Of a stretch of DNA of 64,000 nt, positions 14,394 through 50,625 are shown piece after piece. Position 1 is the stretch's first letter. Each line of letters starts with the position of its first letter. The notes below the pieces were generated by a model. That model had not been told where the DNA came from, made no database searches, and saw nothing but the letters and a program-made list of their open reading frames with translations. The position numbers and the translations under genes were made by a program. Source of the DNA: Anaerolineales bacterium (lineage in GTDB: Bacteria > Chloroflexota > Anaerolineae > Anaerolineales > UBA4823); assembly GCA_025057645.1 (NCBI GenBank), contig JANXBJ010000001.1:62001-126000 (forward strand), in the 5' to 3' direction.

Positions 14394-14423
14394 TTCTTAA
14401 ATTTCGCATAAATCATGTATAAT
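14394..14423 (+). promoter_or_regulatory. Promoter for the structured RNA upstream of recX
   Basis: TTCTTA (14394-14399) and a perfect TATAAT (14418-14423) are separated by 18 bp. The predicted start is near 14430, exactly where the self-complementary region begins. Confidence 0.55.
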
Positions 14424-14429
14424 TTTATT

Positions 14430-14751
14430 AACCATTAGCCGCAACGGGTTTTCTGTGAATGGCTTCTTCTCTGTGGCAATGGCTGTTGGAGCGATCTCAG
14501 TGCTTTTGACTGTGCTTGATGTACTGGTAAACCAAATCGGGTTGGATTTAGAAAGTGTTTGGGCTGTGGCGTAGGTCTGCGCCGAGAAGCTTGAGGAATT
14601 GGAAGAGTTGAGTACACAAGCACAATGAGAGCGGGTTGGAATAGGACTCTCGCTCAGAGTGTTTAGTCCTCTGAGCGCTTGAGGGTGGTGTAATCCAAAC
14701 TGAGTCGGGTTCAAGCAGCCGTTGTCCTCAGGGAAGGATAACGGCTTTTTG
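14430..14751 (+). ncRNA. Candidate structured non-coding RNA of unknown family
   Basis: About 320 nt lie between a promoter and an intrinsic terminator and are full of complementary segments. The strongest is a long-range helix of 14 pairs with one bulged A: 14511-14525 with 14611-14624. Others are 14432-14440 with 14475-14482 (8 pairs, one bulged A), a 6-pair hairpin at 14568-14583 with a GGUC loop, a perfect 9-pair hairpin 14651-14659/14669-14677, 14678-14683 with 14710-14715, and the terminator stem. I find none of the hallmark motifs of RNase P RNA, tmRNA, SRP RNA or 6S RNA. A 39-codon hydrophobic GTG-started frame (14455-14574) crosses it without a clear ribosome-binding site. It might act in trans or as a leader of recX-rny. 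Confidence 0.55.
14717..14751 (+). terminator. Intrinsic terminator just before recX
   Basis: AGCCGTTGTCC (14717-14727) pairs with GGATAACGGCT (14736-14746), 11 pairs with one G-U, around an 8-nt loop, followed by a T-run to 14750. It ends 13 bp before the recX ATG, so it either ends an independent small RNA or attenuates recX-rny. Confidence 0.8.
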
Positions 14752-14763
14752 GATTGGTATTTT

Positions 14764-15420
14764 ATGGAAGGATCGGTGCGAACGATCACTGCACTAAAAG
14801 TGCAAAAGAATCGTCAACGAGTCAATGTCTTCTTGGACGGACGGTTCGCTTTTGGCCTGCTGCGCTCCACCGCTGCCCAGTTAAGGGTGGGGCAAAGGCT
14901 CACCGAGGAGCAAGTGGAGCAATTGCTCTGCGAGGATCGCGTCGATACTTTATATCAGCAGGCTCTGCGATACCTTTCTTTCCGGCCGCGCTCAGAGCAG
15001 GAAATGCACCGCTATCTAAGCAGCCGGGAAACAGAAGAACGAGTACGAGCTCAGGTTTTGGAACGTTTGCGGACAAACGGGTGGTTGGACGATCGGCGCT
15101 TTGCCGAGCAATGGGTAGAAAACCGCTCCGCTTTTCGTCCGCGCAGCAAAAAAGCCCTGAGGCTTGAGCTGCGCCAGCATGGCGTTCAACCGGCTGTCGT
15201 TGAGCAGGCGCTGCAGGAGCTTGATGAAGAGGAACTCGCTTACCTCGCTGTGCGTAAGGTTCTTGATCGCTATCGGGGTCTAGACAGAGTGACTTTTCAG
15301 CGCAGGTTGCAAGGGTTCCTCGTTCGGCGTGGCTTCTCCTATGATATCGTTCCACTGGTCCTCCACCGTTGCTGGCAAGAACTGCATCAAAATCCCGGGA
15401 TGGAACGAGAGGAAGTTTGA
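14764..15420 (+). CDS. recX: Recombination regulatory protein RecX
   Basis: RecX binds and inhibits RecA filaments. The 218-residue product starts at ATG 14764 (MEGSVRTITALKVQKNRQRV). It shows the helical repeats of the family: LRYLSFRPRSEQEMHRYL, LRTNGWLDDRRFAEQWVENR and SKKALRLELRQHGVQP. The frame is open 14 codons upstream, but that part lies inside the terminator hairpin. It is followed after 3 bp by rny, so the two form an operon; recA is not in the window. Confidence 0.92.
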   Translation: MEGSVRTITALKVQKNRQRVNVFLDGRFAFGLLRSTAAQLRVGQRLTEEQVEQLLCEDRVDTLYQQALRYLSFRPRSEQEMHRYLSSRETEERVRAQVLERLRTNGWLDDRRFAEQWVENRSAFRPRSKKALRLELRQHGVQPAVVEQALQELDEEELAYLAVRKVLDRYRGLDRVTFQRRLQGFLVRRGFSYDIVPLVLHRCWQELHQNPGMEREEV

Positions 15421-15423
15421 AGG

Positions 15424-16947
15424 ATGGACTGGCCATGGATTCTCACAATCTCAGTTTTTCTTGTCGGCGTGGCAGGTGGCTACCTCTTGAGAGAGTGGAT
15501 CGCTCGCCGCAAGATCCAGCAAGGGAAAGAGGAAGCCGAAAGGCTGATCCGCGAGGCAGCTCAGCGCGCAAGTGATATCGAGCTGGAGGCGAAAAACCAT
15601 GCGCTGGAGATTCGGCAACAAGCCGAAGCGGAAATTGCCCGCCGGCGTAATGAACTAAGCCGCGAGGAAGACCGACTGCAGAAACGCCGTGAAGAGTTGG
15701 ATTTGCGCGCCGATCGGCTGGAAAAGCGCGAACAGGCGTTGAACAAACGCCAGAGCGCCATCGACAAACGCGCCAATGAGATCGAAAAGATGTACGCCCA
15801 AGAGCTGGAGGAGCTGCAGCGGATCGCCAACATGAGCATGGAAGAGGCGCGTAACGTGCTTCTCGCAGAAGCGGAAAAAGAAGCCCGAGCCGATATGGCA
15901 CGGATTATCCGTCAGATCGAGGCAGAGGCCCGAGAGGAGGGTGAGAATCGAGCGCGCAAGCTGATCGTTGCGGCAATTCAGCGCATTGCCTCAGAACACG
16001 TTGCGGAAGTTTGTACCTCAGTGGTGCCGCTGCCCTCGGATGAGATGAAGGGACGCATCATCGGGCGCAATGGACGGAATATCCATGCCTTTGAGCAGGT
16101 GGCTGGGGTTGACGTCATCGTGGATGATACCCCTGAGGCCGTCACGATCTCTTGCTTCGACCCCATTCGGCGCGAGGTTGCTCGACGGGCGTTAGAGAAA
16201 TTGGTCTTGGATGGACGCATTCACCCTGCTCACATCGAGAAGGTAATCAAGAATGAGCAGAAGGAGGTCGAACGCGACATTGTCGAAGCCGGGGAGCGAG
16301 CTGCTTACGAGGCGGGGGTTACCGGATTGCATCCTGAGGTGATCAGGATGCTTGGGCGGCTAAAATATCGCTCCTCTTACGGGCAGAATCAGCTAGCTCA
16401 CGCTGTCGAAACGGCCCGCTTAGCTGCGATTCTTGCGGCCGAGCTGGGGGCGGATGTCGAAGTGGCCAAGGCCGGAGGGTTGCTTCATGACCTTGGCAAG
16501 GCGATGGATTATAACATGGAGGGAACCCATGCTTTGCTAGGAGCGGAATTTGCCAAACGATATGGCGTACATCCGGCGGTAGTCAATATTATTGCCTCTC
16601 ATCATCACGAGGTCGAGCAGGAGAGCGTGGAGGCAGCTATTGTCGAGGCCGCTGATGCAATCTCCGGTGCGAGACCAGGTGCACGGCGCGAGTCACTCGA
16701 GCAGTACCTGAAACGTGTGCGTGCCTTGGAGGAGATCGCTAACTCATACAAAGGGGTTAGCCAAAGTTATGCTCTGCAGGCAGGACGGGAGATCCGCATC
16801 TTTGTCAAGCCCGAGGAGATCGACGATTTGGAGTCGATCCGATTGGCACGGGATATCGCCAAGAAGATCGAGGAGAGCATGCAATATCCCGGGCAGATCA
16901 AAGTCACCGTTATTCGTGAGACACGTTCGATCGATTATGCTCGGTAG
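15424..16947 (+). CDS. rny: Ribonuclease Y
   Basis: RNase Y is a membrane-anchored endoribonuclease that initiates mRNA decay in many bacteria. The 507 residues follow the family order: an N-terminal membrane helix (residues 5-22), a long charged coiled coil (about 30-190), a KH domain with GRIIGRNGRNIHAFE near 217, and an HD domain with GLLHDLGKAMDYNMEGTH near 357 and ASHHHEVEQES. The C-terminus FVKPEEIDD...YPGQIKVTVIRE is typical. It is likely cotranscribed with recX. Confidence 0.97.
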   Translation: MDWPWILTISVFLVGVAGGYLLREWIARRKIQQGKEEAERLIREAAQRASDIELEAKNHALEIRQQAEAEIARRRNELSREEDRLQKRREELDLRADRLEKREQALNKRQSAIDKRANEIEKMYAQELEELQRIANMSMEEARNVLLAEAEKEARADMARIIRQIEAEAREEGENRARKLIVAAIQRIASEHVAEVCTSVVPLPSDEMKGRIIGRNGRNIHAFEQVAGVDVIVDDTPEAVTISCFDPIRREVARRALEKLVLDGRIHPAHIEKVIKNEQKEVERDIVEAGERAAYEAGVTGLHPEVIRMLGRLKYRSSYGQNQLAHAVETARLAAILAAELGADVEVAKAGGLLHDLGKAMDYNMEGTHALLGAEFAKRYGVHPAVVNIIASHHHEVEQESVEAAIVEAADAISGARPGARRESLEQYLKRVRALEEIANSYKGVSQSYALQAGREIRIFVKPEEIDDLESIRLARDIAKKIEESMQYPGQIKVTVIRETRSIDYAR

Positions 16948-32482: not shown

Positions 32483-32493
32483 AGTGAAAAGCT

Positions 32494-32572
32494 TCGAAAA
32501 GGCAAACCCGTCGTGAGGCGGGGGCGCAAAGCCATGGGGTCTTCCCCTAGGAAGATAGCCCGGCTGCCGAAA
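32494..32572 (+). promoter_or_regulatory. c-di-GMP-I (GEMM-I) riboswitch aptamer, copy 1
   Basis: The conserved GEMM-I core is present in order: GGCAAACC (from 32501), a P1b hairpin with GTGA tetraloop, GCGCAAAGCC, a second helical arm, and GGCTGCCG closing the first helix. These elements match class I c-di-GMP aptamers. A terminator follows directly, so ligand binding probably switches transcription of the downstream surface-protein gene; the direction (ON or OFF) cannot be read with certainty. Confidence 0.93.
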
Positions 32573-32863: not shown

Positions 32864-32918
32864 AGGCTTTTCGAGCTTCAAAGCAGGAGATTTGAACTCG
32901 TGGCTAAGGAGACTATCG

Positions 32919-35544
32919 ATGAAAGGGACACTGTTACATACTCTGAATATTCTTGTTTCATTGTTGGTGGTTTTCTCTCTTGTTACCCCTACCTCTGCAG
33001 CTTCACCGATCTATGTGCGCATAGATGGACATGATACAGAATGCAATGGCACGGCGAATGTTGCTTACTCCGGTAGCGCTAAGCCAAATTGTGCCGTCAG
33101 GACCGTTCAAAAGGGGATTGACCTCGTTGACATAGGGGGGACGGTGTATGTCAATGATGGTGTTTATAATGAGAATATCACCATTCTAAATAAAAACGTG
33201 AAATTACTTTCTATCAATGGGCGCTCCAGCACAACCATTCAGGGAGTGTCAGGGGTCGGAAGTTTGGCAACTTTGCTTGTGGACGGCGCAACGACCGGTG
33301 TTCAGATTGGGGATGTCGGTCACGGATTCACGATTGTCGGAATTGACAATGGCAATCCCGCTGTTGAGAACGCAGCACTATACTTCAGGGGTACACACAG
33401 CAATGCAATCATCAAAGGGAACGAGATAAGGGCAAATGGTGATCACGGGCTTTTATCCGAGTATGGAGCAACGATCACAAATTTCGTGATTGACTCAAAC
33501 ATCTTTTCTGGGAAGACATTTGTTGGTGAGACTCCAGGTGGAGAAGGGCTTGGCGGGCAGTTTACCATTCCGAATGTGCCTCGCCAATTGGTGGTGATGG
33601 GAGGTGGACCTTCGGGTACACTAACAACTGCCGTCCAATTTACGAACAATCAGGTTACCGGCATTGCGGGTGGCGTTAATTCGGATGGCAAAGAACAAGG
33701 AAACACTCTGGTGACCATTGATGCCGACAACAGTCTAATCGAGGGCAACACCTTTGCCGGGGTAACAACGCGAGACGCAGCCAGTCTAAGGGCACGCCGT
33801 CCGGGTACGATTATTAGGAATAACAACTTCTCCAGCGCCGGTTTGACACCCACGACAAGACACTTATTTATCCAAAGTAATCCTCTCACTGATGAACTGG
33901 TTGCGGCAAATACTTTTGATAAGGGCGTATATATTTCTGATCCGTCCGGTGGAGTGGTGGGTATCTCTCTCAAGCCATTCGGCGCAAGTGCCCCTAATGG
34001 CAGTGTAGTCAAAGTCCTTCCCGGGACGTATAACGAGCCCACAGGGGTCGCAATTAATCGCAGAATAACTTTTCTAGGCAGTGGGTCAACCCGTTCAATC
34101 ATCAAAGGGTCGTTCGAAGTCTACACGAATACGGTCACGATCCAGGGTTTCAAGATTGAAAACGGCACGACAAGCGGCGGGGAACTCCATGGGATCTACA
34201 TTGCGGCTGGGCTCTTGGGCGTTCAGATCAGAGATAATTGGCTGGTTGGAACCTGGACCGGAGGGGAAAATAATTTTGTCGGTGGTCGGGGGGTTCTGAC
34301 CGGTTATAACGTCAGCAACCTGACAGTTGAGAACAACGTCATCGAGAAATGGGTCAGCGGCATCTATCTCAACCCAACCGACGGCGCTGTCACCGTCCGC
34401 AACAATGAAATCAAGAACAACTGGGCTGGTGCGGGCACGGATGGTCAAGCCAATGTGCTGTTCAAGAACAATTATTTCATCGGCAACATCGAAGGCATCG
34501 GTGCTTCTGCGGTCGGCGCATCCTTCAAAGTTGAGGAGAATGCCTTCATAGGTAATACCGATGCGGTGAAATGGTATAACGGCATGCCCATTTCAGCGAA
34601 ATTCAATTGGTGGAATGGGAATAAAGGTCCAGTGGTCTCCAGCAATCCGAAGGGGAACGGGCAGCGCATCTCGAGCAACGTCGAATACCGCCCCTGGCTC
34701 TGCGATGGGACGGATGCCCAACCGGGGGTGCCCCGGCTTCCAACCCGCTGCCAACGTGGCCACATGCACCAATCTCGCCACCAAGCTGGTCTTCGCCCAA
34801 TATCCCAGCACTGCCTTCGAAAACATCCCCTTTGAGCAACAACCGGTGGTCCGCGCCGAAGACGATCAGGGCAATCTGGCCATTACTTTTGAGAGCTTCG
34901 TGTTTCTCAGCCTCGCCAATAACCCGGCTGGTGGGTTGCTGTTGCCCGGACCCTATTACAAGAAGGCTGCGGATGGCGTGGCGGCGTTTAGCGGACTTTA
35001 CATCAACAAAGCCGGGCAAGGATACACCCTCAAGGCATTCGGGTTAGGCTCCGGTGGTGATTTCATCCTTGTCGAGGGGCCCGCATTCGAGGTCCGCAAA
35101 CAACAAGCCGACCTCGCTATCACCCTGACCGATAACCCCGACCCAGTGAATGTGGGTGCTGCGCTGAGCTACACGGTCGCCGTCACCAACAACGGGCCGC
35201 ATGTCGCTCAAGCGGTCAGCGTCAGCTTGCTTTTGCCCAACGGTTTTGCCCTGCAGAGCGCCAGCGGCAGCGGTTGGTCCTGCAGCCAAGCCGGCAATAC
35301 CCTCACCTGCAATCGAACCGACCTCCCCAGCGGACAGTCTTCTCAAATCCTCGTCCAAGGCACTGCTCCCGCCCAAGCCGGTTCGATCACAGCTACTGCC
35401 TCGGTGAGTTTGTCGCAGGCTATGGACGACCCCAACTCGGCCAATAACCAAGCCACGGCGACAACCACGGTTGTCGAACTCCCACCCACCGGTCCATCCC
35501 ATTTCCTCTACTTGCCGCTGGTGTTCAAGAGCGGAGCGCCATAG
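32919..35544 (+). CDS. Secreted beta-helix/DUF11 surface protein, frameshifted
   Basis: Start ATG 32919 with AGGAG upstream. The protein has a signal peptide (MKGTLLHTLNILVSLLVVFS ... PTSA), a long right-handed parallel beta-helix region rich in repeated Asn-containing turns (for example NLTVENNVIEKWVSGIYLNP), and a domain of the DUF11 type (ADLAITLTDNPDPVNVGAAL, LSYTVAVTNNGP). The C-terminus is ELPPTGPSHFLYLPLVFK. The reading frame breaks at the GGGGG run 34724-34728: the first frame ends at 34835, while the sequel continues in the +1 frame to 35544. Removing one G joins them as DAQPG-CPGFQPAANVATC. It could be a sequencing error, a mutation or phase variation. Likely an adhesin or matrix protein under c-di-GMP control. 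Confidence 0.8.
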
Positions 35545-36737: not shown

Positions 36738-36816
36738 TTCGGCAGCCTGGCAGTCATAGACAGATCGTCCTTAGACCCATGGCTTTGCGTCGCCGGCTTT
36801 CGCCGGGTTTGCCTTT
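36738..36816 (-). promoter_or_regulatory. c-di-GMP-I (GEMM-I) riboswitch aptamer, copy 2
   Basis: Read on the minus strand the core is complete: GGCAAACC, a P1b hairpin closed by a GAAA tetraloop (GGCGAAAGCC), GACGCAAAGCC, an arm containing CTAAG and CTATGA that resembles the 11-nt receptor for a GAAA tetraloop, and GGCTGCCG. This is a canonical class I c-di-GMP aptamer. It precedes the sortase-like gene by about 190 nt. Confidence 0.94.
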
Positions 36817-37154
36817 GTCGAACGAAAGCTTTCTCTTCCTGCGCGAGGATTGAACCAGATCGCGCTCTTCTAAATTTTAACTGCAAAACTTGGAAAAATT
36901 CCTATTATTATTGTAAGGTAGAGAACTGTATCGACCCTTGGGGGCGGATACCTCCATCTCTGTTTGTAGGCAAGGGGGCCGCTCCTTGCATCTACTCCTT
37001 TTGCCCTCCTCTAGGGGAAGGATGCAGAAAAAGGAGTTCGACCGGCTGCGCCGTTCAACTCACTACCCTGAACCGGCCGGAGGAAGGCGTCAGCCTTTCT
37101 TCGAGTCCTAGCCCGAAGTGCACTCAACGCTCGAGCAGGGCCGGCCCTCGACCC
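36817..37154. other. Intergenic region upstream of riboswitch 2
   Basis: About 340 bp between riboswitch 2 and the end of the DICT-like gene. An AT-rich patch at 36870-36925 could hold the minus-strand promoter for the riboswitch, but no clear -35/-10 pair is visible. A CTCCTTTT ... AAAAGGAG repeat occurs near 36996-37038. Confidence 0.4.
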
Positions 37155-37912: not shown

Positions 37913-38953
37913 TCAGGCCTGAGCGATTTCTCTAACTAATCCCGGTCCTCGATACACTAGGCCAGTGTACACCTGAAGCAGATCTGCTCCTGCGTCCAGC
38001 ATTGCCCTAGCTTGCTCTCGTCCTACAACCCCCCCGACCCCGATCAGCGGCAACCGCTCCCCCGCCCGTCTGCGGATCTTCTTCACAGTCTCCAAACTCA
38101 AGGCGAATAAGGGCAAGCCGCTAAGCCCTCCGTCTTCGCCGGCCGTGGGGCTGAGGGATAGAACGTCCGGCTGCAACCCTTTACGCTGAACAGTCGTGTT
38201 TGTAGCGATGATTCCGTCCATGGCTTGGGTAGTCACTACCTCTAGGATATCGTCTAACTCGCGGTCTTCTAGGTCGGGGGCGATCTTGACTAGGATAGGG
38301 ATGTGCTTTCCTAGCTCGGTTTGGGTTTCCCGGCGGCGTGCATGGAGAGCGCTAAGCAGCTCTTCCAGCGCTTGGCGCGCTTGCAGCCGGCGTAAGCCCA
38401 GAGTGTTGGGGGAGCTGACGTTGACCGCCAGATAGTCGGCTAACGGCGCAAAGACATCAAAAAGAGCAAGATAGTCCTCGGCCGCTCTCTCCAACGGCGT
38501 GGCTTGATTTTTACCCAAGTTGACCCCAAGAACAACTCCTGCAGGACGCTTGCAGCGCAACTGCTGCGCAACGAAGGCCGCTCCTCTTCCGGGAAACCCC
38601 ATACGGTTGATTAGGGCTTGGGCTTCGGGTAAGCGAAATAGACGCGGTTTGGGGTTGCCCGGTTGAGGCTTAGGGGTTACTGTCCCCACCTCGATATGAC
38701 CGAAACCCAAGCAGGATAAACCCTGCCAAGCGATCCCATCCTTATCGTAGCCGGCGGCCAACCCCACCCGGTTGGGAAAGATCAGCCCGAAACACCTTAC
38801 CGGCTGAGAAGGAGTGGTGAAAAGGCTCCTGAGGAGAGAGGCCACTGGCGGGAAGCGGCCACAAACCCTAAGCAGGGACAAAGTAAATTGGTGCACCCAT
38901 TCCGGGTCGAAGCGGAAGAGGAACTGGCGCACCAAAGGATAGAGTTCCGTCAT
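37913..38953 (-). CDS. pyrD: Dihydroorotate dehydrogenase (quinone), class 2
   Basis: PyrD oxidises dihydroorotate to orotate with FMN, passing electrons to membrane quinone in class 2 enzymes. The 346 residues include the N-terminal helical region, FPNRVGLAAGYDKDGIAWQG, GVNLGKNQATPLERAAEDYL, LAVNVSSPNTLGLRRLQ with the catalytic Ser region, and LIGVGGVVGREQARAMLDAG for the phosphate site. It overlaps the pyrFE stop by 4 bp and ends the pyr operon. Confidence 0.95.
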   Translation of the reverse strand: MTELYPLVRQFLFRFDPEWVHQFTLSLLRVCGRFPPVASLLRSLFTTPSQPVRCFGLIFPNRVGLAAGYDKDGIAWQGLSCLGFGHIEVGTVTPKPQPGNPKPRLFRLPEAQALINRMGFPGRGAAFVAQQLRCKRPAGVVLGVNLGKNQATPLERAAEDYLALFDVFAPLADYLAVNVSSPNTLGLRRLQARQALEELLSALHARRRETQTELGKHIPILVKIAPDLEDRELDDILEVVTTQAMDGIIATNTTVQRKGLQPDVLSLSPTAGEDGGLSGLPLFALSLETVKKIRRRAGERLPLIGVGGVVGREQARAMLDAGADLLQVYTGLVYRGPGLVREIAQA

Positions 38954-40398
38954 CCCGTGGCTGTCCTGTGCAGGAAGTCACGCACTGCTTGCGCAGTTTG
39001 AACTTCGATCTTCCCTCGTGCTTCCCAGTAGTTCATCAAGTCGCTAAGCCTGAACACGCTGTGGAGTGCATAGCCCCGTTCTGCGAGTGCCTCCTTGGCT
39101 CCCGACTGACGATCGATCAGAACGACCACGTCTGTGACTCTCAAGCCGGCTTGAGTGAGCTTCGCAATCCCCTCAAACTTACTTTCCCCTGTGGTAGCCA
39201 AATCATCGATCAGCACGATTCGTTCCCCCTCATGGTAGTCCCCTTCGATTTGAGCTTGGGTGCCGTATTCCTTGACTTCCCGTCGCGGGTAGATCCAAGG
39301 GTAGCCGCCTTGGAGGCTGATGGCAGCGGCAATCGGCAAAGCGGCATAGGGAATGGCTGCGAGGCGGTCGAAGGTTAGAGACCTCAAGATCGGCAGATAG
39401 GCTGCGGCCACCTCGGCGAGCAGGGAGGGATATCCAATGAGCCGGCGCAAGTCGATGTAAATGGGCGAGACCAGGCCTGATTTCAGGGTGAACCGCCCGA
39501 AACAGACGCAACCGCTTTCCAGTAAGGCGTCCGCCACGCTTCGAAGTTGCGGCTGGAAAAATGCCGACTCGGAGGGAGCGCTCTGCTTCTCTCGGAGAAG
39601 TTTATTGCGCAGATAGTTAATTTGCTCCCTATACTGCCGAGCTGCTTGGGCGGGATCGGGATGGCGGGCGATCGAGCGCGAAACGTTGATCAGGGTTCCC
39701 AAGCCGTCCGAGCGCAATCCGGCTCGCAGGGCAAGCTCCAGATCTCCTCCCTGAGCGCCCACCCCGGGGATTAGCAGCCACATTTCGGGCACAATTGCGC
39801 GGATGCGCTCGATGGCTTGGGGATAGGTGGCTCCGGCCACCAAGCCGACGTTCTTGAGGCGGTTGAGTTGCCTCGCCATTCGGGCGACGCGTTCAAAGAG
39901 CCGTTCTATTCCCACCTCGCCGTCGAGGCAGCGCGCTTCTTGGAGGAAATCAGCCGTGGGGTTAGAGGTCTTGCAGAGGAGAAAAGCCCCCTTCTGTGCG
40001 GTGGCGAGGAAGGGCTGAAGCGCACCCTCCCCTAAATAGGGGTTGACCGTAACGGCATCCGCTCCGAGCCACCCGAACGCAGCTCGAGCGTAAGCCTCCG
40101 CCGAAGAGGCAATATCCCCTCGCTTGGCATCTAGGATTGTCGGAATTTCTTCGGGGATGGAGGATATGACCTCTTTTAGAACCTTCCATCCCTCGCCGCC
40201 AAACGCTTCGAAAAAAGCGCTATTGGGTTTGAACGCAGCCGCAAAGGGAGCGCAAAGTTCGACAAGCGTATGGCAATATCGAGAAAGGGCTGCTGCTGTG
40301 GGTTCTAAGAGGTCCTGCGGGTGAGGGTCAATGCCGATGCATAGCAGCGAATTGGCCTTCCGACAACGTTCCTCTAGCTTTTCGATAAAGGATTTCAT
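38950..40398 (-). CDS. pyrFE: Bifunctional orotidine-5'-phosphate decarboxylase / orotate phosphoribosyltransferase
   Basis: One 482-residue chain performs the last two steps to UMP. Residues 1-275 are a type-2 OMP decarboxylase: LLCIGIDPHPQDLL, the catalytic ILDAKRGDIASSAEAYARAA near 90, and GAQGGDLELALRAGLRSDGL. Residues about 290-480 are an orotate phosphoribosyltransferase: RFTLKSGLVSPIYIDLR and the PRPP loop RIVLIDDLATTGESKFEG. The order is decarboxylase first, the reverse of the animal UMP synthase. It lies 7 bp after pyrB. Confidence 0.95.
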   Translation of the reverse strand: MKSFIEKLEERCRKANSLLCIGIDPHPQDLLEPTAAALSRYCHTLVELCAPFAAAFKPNSAFFEAFGGEGWKVLKEVISSIPEEIPTILDAKRGDIASSAEAYARAAFGWLGADAVTVNPYLGEGALQPFLATAQKGAFLLCKTSNPTADFLQEARCLDGEVGIERLFERVARMARQLNRLKNVGLVAGATYPQAIERIRAIVPEMWLLIPGVGAQGGDLELALRAGLRSDGLGTLINVSRSIARHPDPAQAARQYREQINYLRNKLLREKQSAPSESAFFQPQLRSVADALLESGCVCFGRFTLKSGLVSPIYIDLRRLIGYPSLLAEVAAAYLPILRSLTFDRLAAIPYAALPIAAAISLQGGYPWIYPRREVKEYGTQAQIEGDYHEGERIVLIDDLATTGESKFEGIAKLTQAGLRVTDVVVLIDRQSGAKEALAERGYALHSVFRLSDLMNYWEARGKIEVQTAQAVRDFLHRTATG

Positions 40399-47080: not shown

Positions 47081-50000
47081 TCAGGAAGCAAAAGAGGAAG
47101 TCAAATCAACCAGTTGATTGAGCTTTTCCAGGGCGGCGCCGCTCTCTAGAGAGAGGCGAGCTTGTTCCAACGCTTCTTCGATCTCGCCTGTGACCGTGGA
47201 GATGGCAACAGCAGCGTTGAAGAGGACTACGTCTCGGCAGGGCGTTTTCAGCTTTCCGGCCAGCAAGTCCCGTAAAACCTGGGCGTTCTGCTGAGGGGAG
47301 CCGCCCCGTAAGTCCTCTAGAGAAGCGGGCTGCAAGCCAAACTCGCGGCCATCCAGTTCAAAGGTTTCCACCCGGTGAGCTGTAGCACGGGTAACCCGAT
47401 TCTTGCCCCCGGTGGTCAGTTCATCTAGTCCCCCCTCGCCGTGCACCACCATGGTGGCTTGGTTGCCTAATTCCACTGCTGCCTGAGCGATAAGCTCCGT
47501 GAGTGCCGGGTCGTATACCCCGATCAGTTGATGGGTCACCCGCGCCGGGTTAACCAAAGGGCCGAGTAAGTTGAAGATCGAACGCTGCCCAATCTCTCTG
47601 CGAGGAGCCATAGCGTGTTTCATTGCTGGGTGGAAACGAGGAGCAAATAGAAAACCAATGCCTACCTCCTCGATGCACCGAGCTACTTGTTCGGGTGTGG
47701 TATCAATGCGGACACCGAGGGCCTCGAACAGATCGGCACTGCCGCAAACGGACGAAACGGCCCGGTTGCCATGCTTGGCTACTTTGTAGCCAGCGCCGGC
47801 GATCACAAAGGCTGCGGCGGTCGAAACATTGAAGGAGTGTTTGCCATCCCCGCCGGTGCCGGCGGTGTCGAGCAGCACGAGAGGGTCTCTGACGAAGGGC
47901 ACAGGGGTTGCCTGAGCTCGCATCGCCAAAGCGCAGCCTACAATCTCGTCCAGAGTTTCCCCTTTCATGCGCAGTCCGACCAAAAACGCTCCGATCTGGG
48001 CGGGGGTTGCTTGCCCCGTCATAATCAGGGTCATGGCTTCCTCGGCTTCTTTGCGAGTCAGGTTTTGACCTTGGACGATTTTGGAGAGATAAGGCTTGAG
48101 CTTGTGACTCTCCTCTTGGCTAAAAGATAGGCTTGGGGAGGGGGGAGTGGCCTTAACTGCAAGGAAATTGGCCAAAATCTGTTTTCCGTGAGAGGTCAGG
48201 ATGGACTCGGGGTGAAATTGAACGCCGTAAATCGGATAGTGCTTGTGGCGCAAACCCATAATCACCCCATCTTCTGTGCGGGCGACCACTTCCAGTTCTG
48301 CAGGCAGGGGTTCGGTGACAACCAGTGAGTGATAGCGTGTGGCTTCGAACGGCGAAGGGACTCCGGCGAAAATGCCGTCCCCTTGGTGATAAATCAGAGA
48401 GGTTTTGCCGTGCATCAGAGCAGGGGCTTGGGTCACCTTGCCACCGAAGATGTATCCGATACATTGGTGACCTAGACAGACCCCCAGAGTGGGGATGCTC
48501 TTGCCGAACTTTTGGATCACCTCGTTAGAGATTCCCGCCTGCTCAGGTGAGCCGGGTCCGGGAGAAATCACTAGGTGCGTAGGTTGATAAGCGGCGATCT
48601 CGTCCGCTGAGAGGGCATCGTTGCGAAAGATCAACACTTCTGCGCCCAGTTCCCCCAAGTATTGGGCTAAGTTGTAAGTGAACGAGTCGTAATTGTCAAT
48701 CAGAACTACTCTTGGAGCGGCCTTTTTCGAGGCAGGGGGACTAAGTTTGGCCGAGAGACTCAATGACCTTTCTGCAAGCTCCACCGCTTGGAAGAGTGCG
48801 CTGGCTTTGTTCAGGCATTCTTGGTGTTCCCGGAAGGGGTCGGAATCGGCAACGATCCCCGCTCCGGCTTGAACTTCGACTTGGTGGCCGCGCATCACCA
48901 GAGTGCGGATCGCAATGCACGAGTCCAGCGCACCGCTGTAAGAAACATACCCCACAACACCGGCATAAATGCCGCGCGGTTGCCCCTCCAATTCGTTGAT
49001 CACTTGCATCGCCCTGACCTTGGGTGCACCGCTAACCGTTCCTGCAGGAAACGTAGCCTGAAGTAAGTCGAAAGCGTCAAACTCGGGCCGCAGCTCGCCG
49101 TCAACTTGGGAGACGATATGCATAACATGGGAATACCGTTCCACGACCATTTGTTGCGAGACTTTCACGCTCCCAAAGCGGCAGACTCTGCCTAAATCGT
49201 TGCGGGCCAAGTCGACAAGCATGATATGTTCCGCTCGTTCTTTCGGGTCGGCTAAGAGTTCCTTCTCAAGGCGTAGGTCTTCTTCTAGGTTGTTTGAGCG
49301 CGGGCGCGTGCCGGCGATGGGGCGGAGAGAAGCCACCCCACGATCGAGCCGCACGTGCATTTCCGGAGAGGCACCGATAAGGAAGAACGGCGCTCCACCG
49401 CCTAAATCTCCGAAGTCGAAGAAGTACATATAGGGAGAGGGATTCAGCCGACGTAAGGAGCGATAAATCGCCAGAGGTGGTGCATGGGTTGACCCCAAGA
49501 AGCGCTGCGAAAGTACAATCTGAAAACAGTCCCCTCGGCGGATGTATTCTTTGGCTTGAGCAACCATTTGCTCAAACCTTTCCCTTGAGATGGAAGGTTG
49601 TAGCGGAGCAGAATTGACTTTTTCGACTCGCTCTGCAACCTCCTCCGGAGGTTGAGCTAAGCGTTCCTCGAGCCCATCCAGACGCTCTTTGGCTTTGTTT
49701 GTAACCTCAGCCTCATCTTCGACGGCGATGAGGATTAATTTTCCGAAGGCGTGATCGAAGGCGATAAAGGTGTTGGTTTCAAGGAAGATCGCCTCCGGCA
49801 AATCCGCACGCGGCTCGATCGTGACTGTGGGTTCAAAGAAGCGAACGAAGTCATAGCTCAGGTATCCCACTAAACCGCCCATGAAGCGCAGAGGGTGATT
49901 CCATCCCTGGCTGGTCAAGTTGAGCGGTTTTTTGAAGACCCGACGCAGCACATCCAAGGGGTTTTCCCCTTCCTGGAGAGCGAGAGTCTCGCTCCCAGAA

Positions 50001-50260
50001 GGAGAGTAAATGTGCCAAGCGTTGCGGTGAAAAACGAATGCCTGTCTAGGCCAGACGCCGATGAACGAGAAGCGGGCGACTTGCTCCCCACCGCTCACGC
50101 TCTCCAACAAGAACGAGGCTCCTCCGTCGCGCAATTTCAAATATACGGAGAGAGGGGTTTCCAAATCGGCAGCTCTTTCGCGCAACAGGGCCACTCGCCC
50201 GTCAGGTAGTCTCAGCGTTTGCTCCAAGTCGAATGAGAACACGTGTGTCCGATGATTCAT
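47081..50260 (-). CDS. trpEGD: TrpE-TrpG-TrpD fusion: anthranilate synthase and anthranilate phosphoribosyltransferase
   Basis: One uninterrupted 1059-residue chain carries three enzymes. Residues about 1-505 are anthranilate synthase component I: the tryptophan-feedback segment ASFLLESVSGGEQVARFSFI, IAGTRPRSNNLEEDLRLEKE, and AGAGIVADSDPFREHQECLN. About 520-710 are the glutamine amidotransferase TrpG: VLIDNYDSFTYNLAQYLG, the nucleophile in LGVCLGHQCIGYIFGG, and GVQFHPESILTSHG. About 725-1059 are TrpD: LLDTAGTGGDGKHSFNVSTA, KHGNRAVSSVCGSADLFEAL, and FNLLGPLVNPARVTHQLIGV. Start ATG 50260 has GGAGG six bases before. A tRNA-Trp T-box precedes it. Confidence 0.96.
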   Translation of the reverse strand: MNHRTHVFSFDLEQTLRLPDGRVALLRERAADLETPLSVYLKLRDGGASFLLESVSGGEQVARFSFIGVWPRQAFVFHRNAWHIYSPSGSETLALQEGENPLDVLRRVFKKPLNLTSQGWNHPLRFMGGLVGYLSYDFVRFFEPTVTIEPRADLPEAIFLETNTFIAFDHAFGKLILIAVEDEAEVTNKAKERLDGLEERLAQPPEEVAERVEKVNSAPLQPSISRERFEQMVAQAKEYIRRGDCFQIVLSQRFLGSTHAPPLAIYRSLRRLNPSPYMYFFDFGDLGGGAPFFLIGASPEMHVRLDRGVASLRPIAGTRPRSNNLEEDLRLEKELLADPKERAEHIMLVDLARNDLGRVCRFGSVKVSQQMVVERYSHVMHIVSQVDGELRPEFDAFDLLQATFPAGTVSGAPKVRAMQVINELEGQPRGIYAGVVGYVSYSGALDSCIAIRTLVMRGHQVEVQAGAGIVADSDPFREHQECLNKASALFQAVELAERSLSLSAKLSPPASKKAAPRVVLIDNYDSFTYNLAQYLGELGAEVLIFRNDALSADEIAAYQPTHLVISPGPGSPEQAGISNEVIQKFGKSIPTLGVCLGHQCIGYIFGGKVTQAPALMHGKTSLIYHQGDGIFAGVPSPFEATRYHSLVVTEPLPAELEVVARTEDGVIMGLRHKHYPIYGVQFHPESILTSHGKQILANFLAVKATPPSPSLSFSQEESHKLKPYLSKIVQGQNLTRKEAEEAMTLIMTGQATPAQIGAFLVGLRMKGETLDEIVGCALAMRAQATPVPFVRDPLVLLDTAGTGGDGKHSFNVSTAAAFVIAGAGYKVAKHGNRAVSSVCGSADLFEALGVRIDTTPEQVARCIEEVGIGFLFAPRFHPAMKHAMAPRREIGQRSIFNLLGPLVNPARVTHQLIGVYDPALTELIAQAAVELGNQATMVVHGEGGLDELTTGGKNRVTRATAHRVETFELDGREFGLQPASLEDLRGGSPQQNAQVLRDLLAGKLKTPCRDVVLFNAAVAISTVTGEIEEALEQARLSLESGAALEKLNQLVDLTSSFAS

Positions 50261-50291
50261 TCTCAACCTCCAAGGCACTTACAAACTCAAA

Positions 50292-50321
50292 ACGCCTCAT
50301 CGTCTCAGGGACGAGAGGCGT
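50292..50321 (-). terminator. T-box regulatory terminator
   Basis: On the minus strand ACGCCTC-TCGTC pairs with GACGA-T-GAGGCGT around a CCTGA loop, followed by TTTT. It lies between the T-box sequence and trpEGD, as expected for a transcriptional T-box. Confidence 0.85.
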
Positions 50322-50625
50322 CTCCCGTGGTGCCACCCTGCTTAGACCGGCTCTTACCGCTAAACGTAAAACCCGTTGTCAGACAACGGGTTGAGATAGC
50401 CAGTCTCACTCTTTTCGGGTACGACTTGCAATGCAAGCTTATACCCTTTGCCGCGATAACGGTGGCAACTCCGGCACAGGCTACTGCCGATTCTTGAAAT
50501 CGGGTTCGCCTTGCAGCTCTGAGATCCATTCCCTTGCTCGACCGGTCGGGTTCGCACCATCCACCCGCTCTCTGAACCGTCCAGAAGCAAGGTACTCTTT
50601 CTCTTCAACGCCTTTTAACAGTCGA
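50292..50625 (-). promoter_or_regulatory. T-box leader responding to tRNA-Trp
   Basis: Minus-strand features fit a T-box riboswitch: AGAGTACC near the 5' end of stem I, GGGTGGATGGTGCGAACC in its distal part, and a specifier loop with GAA-TGG-A. Its TGG codon at 50528-50526 is tryptophan. The T-box AGGGTGGCACCACGG is at about 50341-50327. The antiterminator bulge TGGC would pair with an NCCA end whose discriminator is G, as in bacterial tRNA-Trp. Uncharged tRNA-Trp should therefore turn on trpEGD-C-F-B-A. Confidence 0.9.

Follow-up and report, generated by a model that had tools for sequence, protein, structure and literature searches.

We identified, in a 64,000-nucleotide stretch of DNA from an Anaerolineales bacterium (the whole stretch analysed, hereafter the window; G000:C11:62001-126000), a structured RNA element that, judging from its sequence and that of its relatives, probably acts as a cis-acting terminator/antiterminator transcription attenuator of the recX-rny operon. 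The element (14394-14750) comprises a promoter, an RNA stretch of approximately 310 nt and an intrinsic terminator; it is flanked by the divergent mraZ/dcw cluster on one side and by recX-rny on the other. The recX gene is a DNA-repair gene, whose product RecX is a modulator of RecA, and rny is an RNA-decay gene. The region had been described in an earlier note, made from the letters of the window, as a candidate structured RNA, and this observation is confirmed. The features of the element and the two genes proposed to be controlled by it are as follows.

14394-14423 (+): sigma-70-type leader promoter (TTCTTA 14394-14399, 18-nt spacer, TATAAT 14418-14423)
14438-14477 (+): H1, 5' hairpin, proposed anti-antiterminator (GCCGCA 14438-14443 / TGTGGC 14472-14477; genus consensus fold)
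14475-14484 (+): P1 5' strand, proposed antiterminator (GGCAATGGCT; pairs with 14717-14726)
14493-14706 (+): P2 helix (GATCTCAGT 14493-14501 / ACTGAGTC 14699-14706), closing a domain of about 200 nt
14511-14624 (+): P3 long helix (14511-14525 / 14611-14624)
14658-14679 (+): P4 hairpin (AGTGTTTAG 14658-14666 / CTGAGCGCT 14671-14679; genus alignment and consensus fold)
14717-14750 (+): T, intrinsic terminator (AGCCGTTGTCC 14717-14727 / GGATAACGGCT 14736-14746, with T run)
14764-15420 (+): recX, first of the two genes proposed to be controlled; its start codon lies 13 nt past the last U of the terminator
15424-16947 (+): rny (RNase Y), second of these genes, directly after recX

Fold and Mutually Exclusive Helices of the Element

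The TTCTTA-18-TATAAT promoter proposed in the earlier note could be read in the window, and it is backed by the identity of CATGTATAAT (-10 region) in 6/6 genus genomes in the genus alignment. The promoter scanner did not list it, because the -35 hexamer agrees with TTGACA at 3/6 positions. In the genome of the window, recA is approximately 107 kb distant.

The folding energy of the element RNA was -124 kcal/mol, whereas 100 dinucleotide shuffles gave -100.45 kcal/mol (sd 5.04); this corresponds to a z of -4.67, and no shuffle was as good, in line with the previous argument that the pairing is beyond chance. The median fold z across loci was -3.17, with 65 of 84 loci below -2, indicating that the low folding energy is general. 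The locus L124 (order family f13) showed an element fold z of -10.3, far beyond the other loci. The long helix noticed previously, P3 (TGTGCTTGATGTACT/AGTACACAAGCACA), has 14 pairs with a single bulged A and was retained in 6/6 genus sequences. The second hairpin noticed previously, at 14651-14677, forms in the window sequence with 9 pairs (CGCTCAGAG/CTCTGAGCG, 14651-14659/14669-14677), but it is not conserved, and the overlapping P4 takes its place in relatives. The strong terminator was recovered by the terminator scan as a hairpin of 12 pairs (14717-14746) followed by a T run.

The key feature of the element is P1, a pairing that was not mentioned in the earlier note. The terminator 5' arm (14717-14726) doubles as the P1 3' strand, and the H1 3' arm overlaps the P1 5' strand; P1 and the terminator are thus mutually exclusive, and P1 also overlaps H1. 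The three exclusive pairings stand in the classical attenuator order, H1 (1:2), P1 (2:3) and T (3:4), with P1 enclosing P2, P3 and P4. The P1 duplex in the window had an energy of -18.0 kcal/mol, and 2/200 shuffled upstream regions were equally good. The free fold of the window sequence corresponded to the P1 state (-124.0 kcal/mol; -123.5 kcal/mol with P1 forced), and the state containing H1 and T had an energy of -116.8 kcal/mol. Since both states are stable in the window, a switch between them is energetically possible. In energy terms, the P1 (read-through) state is the one preferred at equilibrium in the window, which counts against the attenuator reading, though kinetics decide.

Known RNA Families, Reading Frames and Literature

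No Rfam family matched at the gathering threshold in the region of the element in the window or in the loci of 20 relatives, and a search with E values up to 10 gave three chance-level matches, all outside 14394-14751. The claim of novelty, for which the earlier note had proposed an Rfam search, therefore stands, and no membership in a known riboswitch aptamer family was found in Rfam. As stated previously, the element bears no signature of 6S or RNase P RNA: neither covariance model (RF00013 or RF00010) matched here, and both RNAs sit elsewhere in the genome, the 6S RNA at G000:C11:637450-637624 (81 bits) and a copy of RNase P RNA at G000:C6:56219-56639.

Several other features were observed in the window. 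A T-box leader (RF00230, 119.9 bits) lies at 50304-50617 (-), ahead of a 1065-aa frame (47081-50278, -) which we take to resemble a fused anthranilate synthase and phosphoribosyltransferase. Two riboswitches of the c-di-GMP-I type (RF01051, RF03167) are located at 36738-36823 (-) and 32492-32572 (+), the latter ahead of a long protein frame (32892-34835) of repeat type and secreted appearance. By eye, the frame at 38950-40398 (-) resembles an orotidine-5'-phosphate decarboxylase/orotate phosphoribosyltransferase fusion.

An ORF of 31 aa at 14479-14574 (+) (MAVGAISVLLTVLDV..., MAVGMISV...) begins in P1, and its start is common to 6/6 genus members. A protein-coding reading was rejected, as the length of this ORF varies from 19 to 55 aa among the 6 members; a conserved protein frame, named in the earlier note as evidence that would speak against an RNA structure, was not found, as no frame is of conserved length even inside the genus. 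The antisense ORFs in the region of the element were taken as chance. A conserved leader peptide overlapping region 1, as in trp-type attenuators, was not found either, in the genus or, by eye, in other families; the genus ORF starts in P1 and not before H1.

We found no description of the element in the open-licence papers searched, the 2017 survey of 224 structured RNAs being covered via Rfam only; recX is absent from the main text of PMC2864571 and PMC2965389. The recX gene of M. tuberculosis has a promoter inside recA, according to the passages cited from PMC3062782. The terminator/antiterminator device as such is already known; what is new, within the sources checked, is the enclosed domain of 200 nt, the setting among recA, recX and rny, and the conservation of the element throughout the order.

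Conservation and Gene Layout in Relatives

A DNA search detected the element in 6/6 genus genomes, as conserved 5'-end and 3'-end blocks, and in 6/41 genomes when applied to the wider relatives. The consensus of the genus alignment (6 sequences) comprised the -10 region, H1, P2, P3, P4 and T, and several blocks were near-identical inside the genus. A covariance model (R1; 17 sequences, with long insertions) matched 32 loci, weakly, which counts against the attenuator reading. Because of these weak matches, R1 was left out of the genome-wide analysis, and loci were collected via recX. Homologues of recX were found in 30/38 genomes in the family search, 150/161 in the order and 123/141 in the phylum, and a RecX search of the genome contigs gave 2 loci. 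The loci fetched covered 60 places in the order outside the own family, representing 14 families, and 40 places in the class or phylum. We found the element in front of recX-rny in loci from throughout the order Anaerolineales. Inspection by eye indicated that cross-family conservation is found mainly in the H1-P1, CTCAG/CTGAG and terminator segments, and that the 200-nt domain has little conserved primary sequence between families, which also counts against the attenuator reading. The loci L011 and L012 are included in the counts over 91 loci (rny order and recA adjacency) and excluded from those over 89, 80 and 84 loci.

A hairpin scan for the terminator covered 91 loci, and 80/89 loci passed the energy and T-run filter; the automatic finder misses some terminators, such as that of G087/L116, which was recovered by the terminator pattern. 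The distance from the terminator end to the first in-frame recX start codon had a median of 14.5 nt (quartiles 6.75-21) and was 60 nt or less in 76/80 loci. An intrinsic terminator is thus found between the promoter or upstream gene and the start codon of the gene proposed to be controlled, as expected for an attenuator, and the gap of 14.5 nt leaves scarcely any room for a recX promoter, so that recX transcripts must cross the terminator or begin within the leader. The rny gene was the next gene after recX on the same strand in 91/91 loci of the Anaerolineales type, and recA was the directly upstream gene on the same strand in 45/91. A -10 of the TGTATAAT type was present within 520 nt upstream of recX in 27/46 loci without recA upstream, and in 4/45 recA-linked loci, all at positions inside the recA frame. 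The earlier note had called the element a complete small transcription unit, and this description holds for the window, where promoter and terminator are both present, but not for the 45/91 loci in which recA precedes the element.

An exact consensus pattern of the terminator was found in 17/161 order genomes and lay beside recX in 16/17, and a reversed control pattern matched once. The element therefore appears to be single-copy and tied to recX, most loci having been collected through recX. The sole exact match away from recX was at G114:C7:7216-7238 (-). Outside the order, three of the class loci L126-L130 were examined for P1, namely L130, L127 and L129, and none was convincing, as 12, 88 and 55 of 200 shuffles, respectively, were as good. 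In phylum loci outside the order, examined by eye, adjacency of recA and recX was common, most loci had a short gap or no recA upstream, and a plain terminator was seen in several, for example L127, L141 and L146.

Co-Variation of P1, H1 and P2

In the upstream regions, the H1 3' arm and the bases after it (e.g., GCGGCCACGGCT) were complementary to the terminator 5' arm (AGCCGTGGCC), and paired changes in P1 were observed, as in GGCAATGGCTG/CAGCCGTTGTC in the genus, GGTCACGGTTG/CAGCCGTGACC in L058, GTGGTTGG/CCAGCCAC in L053 and GGGCTACGG/CCGTAGCCC in L067. A quantitative analysis was carried out with an arm-exchange test, in which each upstream region was paired with its own terminator arm and with the arms of other genomes, so that the pairs were not picked by eye. 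For P1 in 73/91 loci, the mean energy with the own arm was -18.47, as compared to -15.96 (sd 0.266) with permuted arms (z -9.5, 0/5000). When each genus was represented by a single locus (60 genera), z ranged from -7.5 to -8.6, with 0/2000 permutations as good in each of five draws; with one locus per family (15), the mean gain was 2.14 kcal/mol, and 200/200 draws went in the same direction. A mock arm gave z values of -0.9 and -1.0. Similarly, H1 gave z values of -5.4 and -5.5 (0/3000, 52 genera; mocks -0.5 and -1.3), and P2 gave -6.8 and -7.2 (0/3000, 52 genera; mocks -1.7 and -2.1). In a curated set of 18 sequences, 177-218 nt separated the two arms of P2. Of the loci available, 18/91 were dropped from the first P1 test and 9/89 from the second, and the H1 and P2 tests used 70/80.

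Exceptions were found among individual loci. P1 was individually striking (10/200 shuffles or fewer) in only 18/31 loci, which counts against the attenuator reading, and in several loci, e.g., L040, L043, L046, L070, L109, L119 and L122, the best P1 duplex lay at a non-canonical place. By eye, P1 is shifted several nt nearer to the 5' end, inside the H1 3' arm, in the L050/L052 and L054/L056/L059 clades, and this shift explains the poor column counts of 3 to 6/10 pairs in L056, L054, L050 and L052. An antiterminator helix that excludes the terminator is kept by co-variation, with these exceptions among loci.

The earlier note had proposed alignment of relatives for covariation, and the arm-exchange tests indicate that P1, H1 and P2 co-vary with their partners across genera. 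Taken together, the lack of an Rfam family, the co-varying helices and the absence of a length-conserved frame support its central claim of a new structured RNA. Of its two suggestions, a new ncRNA class or a regulatory leader of recX-rny, the leader is favoured, and the stand-alone ncRNA class appears less likely.

Discussion

In the proposed attenuator, formation of H1 and T would represent the off state, in which RNA polymerase would stop at approximately 14750, leaving a leader RNA of about 320 nt in the window, or the 3' end of the recA mRNA in relatives. In the on state, P2/P1 would close before the T 3' arm emerges, so that the terminator would be blocked and transcription would read through into recX-rny. 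Opening of T may also aid the translation of recX, as T ends approximately 15 nt before the recX start codon. The choice between the two states would depend on a factor that makes the 200-nt domain more or less stable, perhaps a metabolite or feedback by RecX or RNase Y, and this is the weakest step of the model. It is possible, albeit doubtful, that this domain is a genuine sensor of a new class, binding a ligand or a protein; RecX and RNase Y would then be under a riboswitch-like control that uncouples them from recA at the RNA level throughout the order. In the simplest history, an antiterminator domain would have been added in front of the terminator between recA and recX in the Anaerolineales, and loci that lost recA, including that of the window, may often use a promoter directly in front of the element.

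One rival explanation is a constitutively leaky terminator, whose hairpin merely lowers the expression of recX-rny relative to recA, the upstream structure having no switching role. In its favour, recA is followed after a short gap by recX in Chloroflexota outside the order, with a plain terminator in several loci by eye. In E. coli, a terminator lies immediately upstream of recX, and read-through accounts for approximately 10% of recX transcription, according to the cited passage of PMC3542578. However, co-variation across 52-60 genera shows that P1, H1 and P2 are kept, although a plain terminator needs none of these helices and a helix competing strongly for the terminator 5' arm would face counter-selection, making a merely leaky terminator improbable. 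We consider it still less probable that the element is a stand-alone, trans-acting sRNA of about 320 nt, with P1 as its closing stem and recX downstream by history. The window does contain a dedicated promoter and terminator, a promoter-like -10 is found in 27/46 loci without upstream recA, and the fold is strong; set against this, recA takes the place of the promoter in 45/91 loci, 16/17 exact terminators lie at recX, and little primary sequence is conserved between families. As recX served to gather the loci, most copies at other sites would have escaped notice, save by the DNA searches and the terminator pattern.

Two further explanations concern what might operate such a switch. A narrower form of the attenuator, a feedback leader in which RNase Y or RecX would bind or cleave the 200-nt domain and thereby set read-through or mRNA life, seems rather unlikely on the sequences compared. 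It is in keeping with the constant position of rny after recX and with B. subtilis, where RNase Y controls its own expression through cleavage of the rny mRNA, 5' UTR included, as described in the cited passages of PMC10303841; on the other hand, cleavage by RNase Y is expected after, not before, the termination decision. This autoregulation and the read-through into E. coli recX make control at the recX leader no more than plausible. A ribosome-controlled attenuator, in which translation of the end of recA or of a leader peptide would mask H1 and thereby release the P1 strand, is very unlikely. The P1 strand does lie 1-50 nt past the recA stop in 12/39 recA-linked loci, and the genus-shared ORF start (MAVGMISV...) lies in P1, but the distance from stop to P1 varies widely, reaching 177 nt and turning negative in loci whose best duplex lies within recA, H1 persists without recA, and the ORF, of 19-55 aa in the 6 genus members, has no counterpart in other families by eye. 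We therefore prefer the cis-acting terminator/antiterminator attenuator of recX-rny as the probable function of the element.

The ratio of RecX to RecA bears on recombination and the SOS response. Anaerolineales would represent an order in which the terminator between recA and recX evolved into a conserved RNA device, apparently able to switch, whose reach extends to RNase Y. The element offers a testable instance in which recombination would be controlled at the RNA level, and a defined structure for assays in a group in which few regulatory RNAs have been studied.

Attenuators of the trp type and other terminator/antiterminator attenuators use exclusive 1:2, 2:3 and 3:4 helices, and the same scheme is seen here as H1, P1 and T. 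The present element differs from the trp type in having 200 nt of structure between segments 2 and 3, in having no conserved leader peptide and in preceding other genes. In ON-type riboswitches, such as the pbuE adenine riboswitch, P1 holds the terminator 5' arm, and P1 of the present element likewise pairs with that arm at the base of a structured domain; unlike the pbuE type, the element has no Rfam aptamer and, by eye, no strongly conserved cross-family core. Most riboswitch aptamers have a conserved primary sequence, in contrast to the little seen by eye across families in the 200-nt domain. Like 6S RNA (RF00013), the element measures a few hundred nt and is elongated, rod-like and closed, with no covariance match here. 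If the attenuator reading is correct, RNA-level control of rny would be common to the element and the autoregulation of B. subtilis RNase Y (PMC10303841); there, cleavage occurs within the rny ORF and 5' UTR, and the cited passages describe neither a terminator/antiterminator nor a linkage to recX. The terminator before recX is common to the element and E. coli recA-recX, which in the cited passage has a terminator and read-through only, whereas the Anaerolineales element adds a proposed antiterminator, a proposed anti-antiterminator, the 200-nt domain and rny in the operon.
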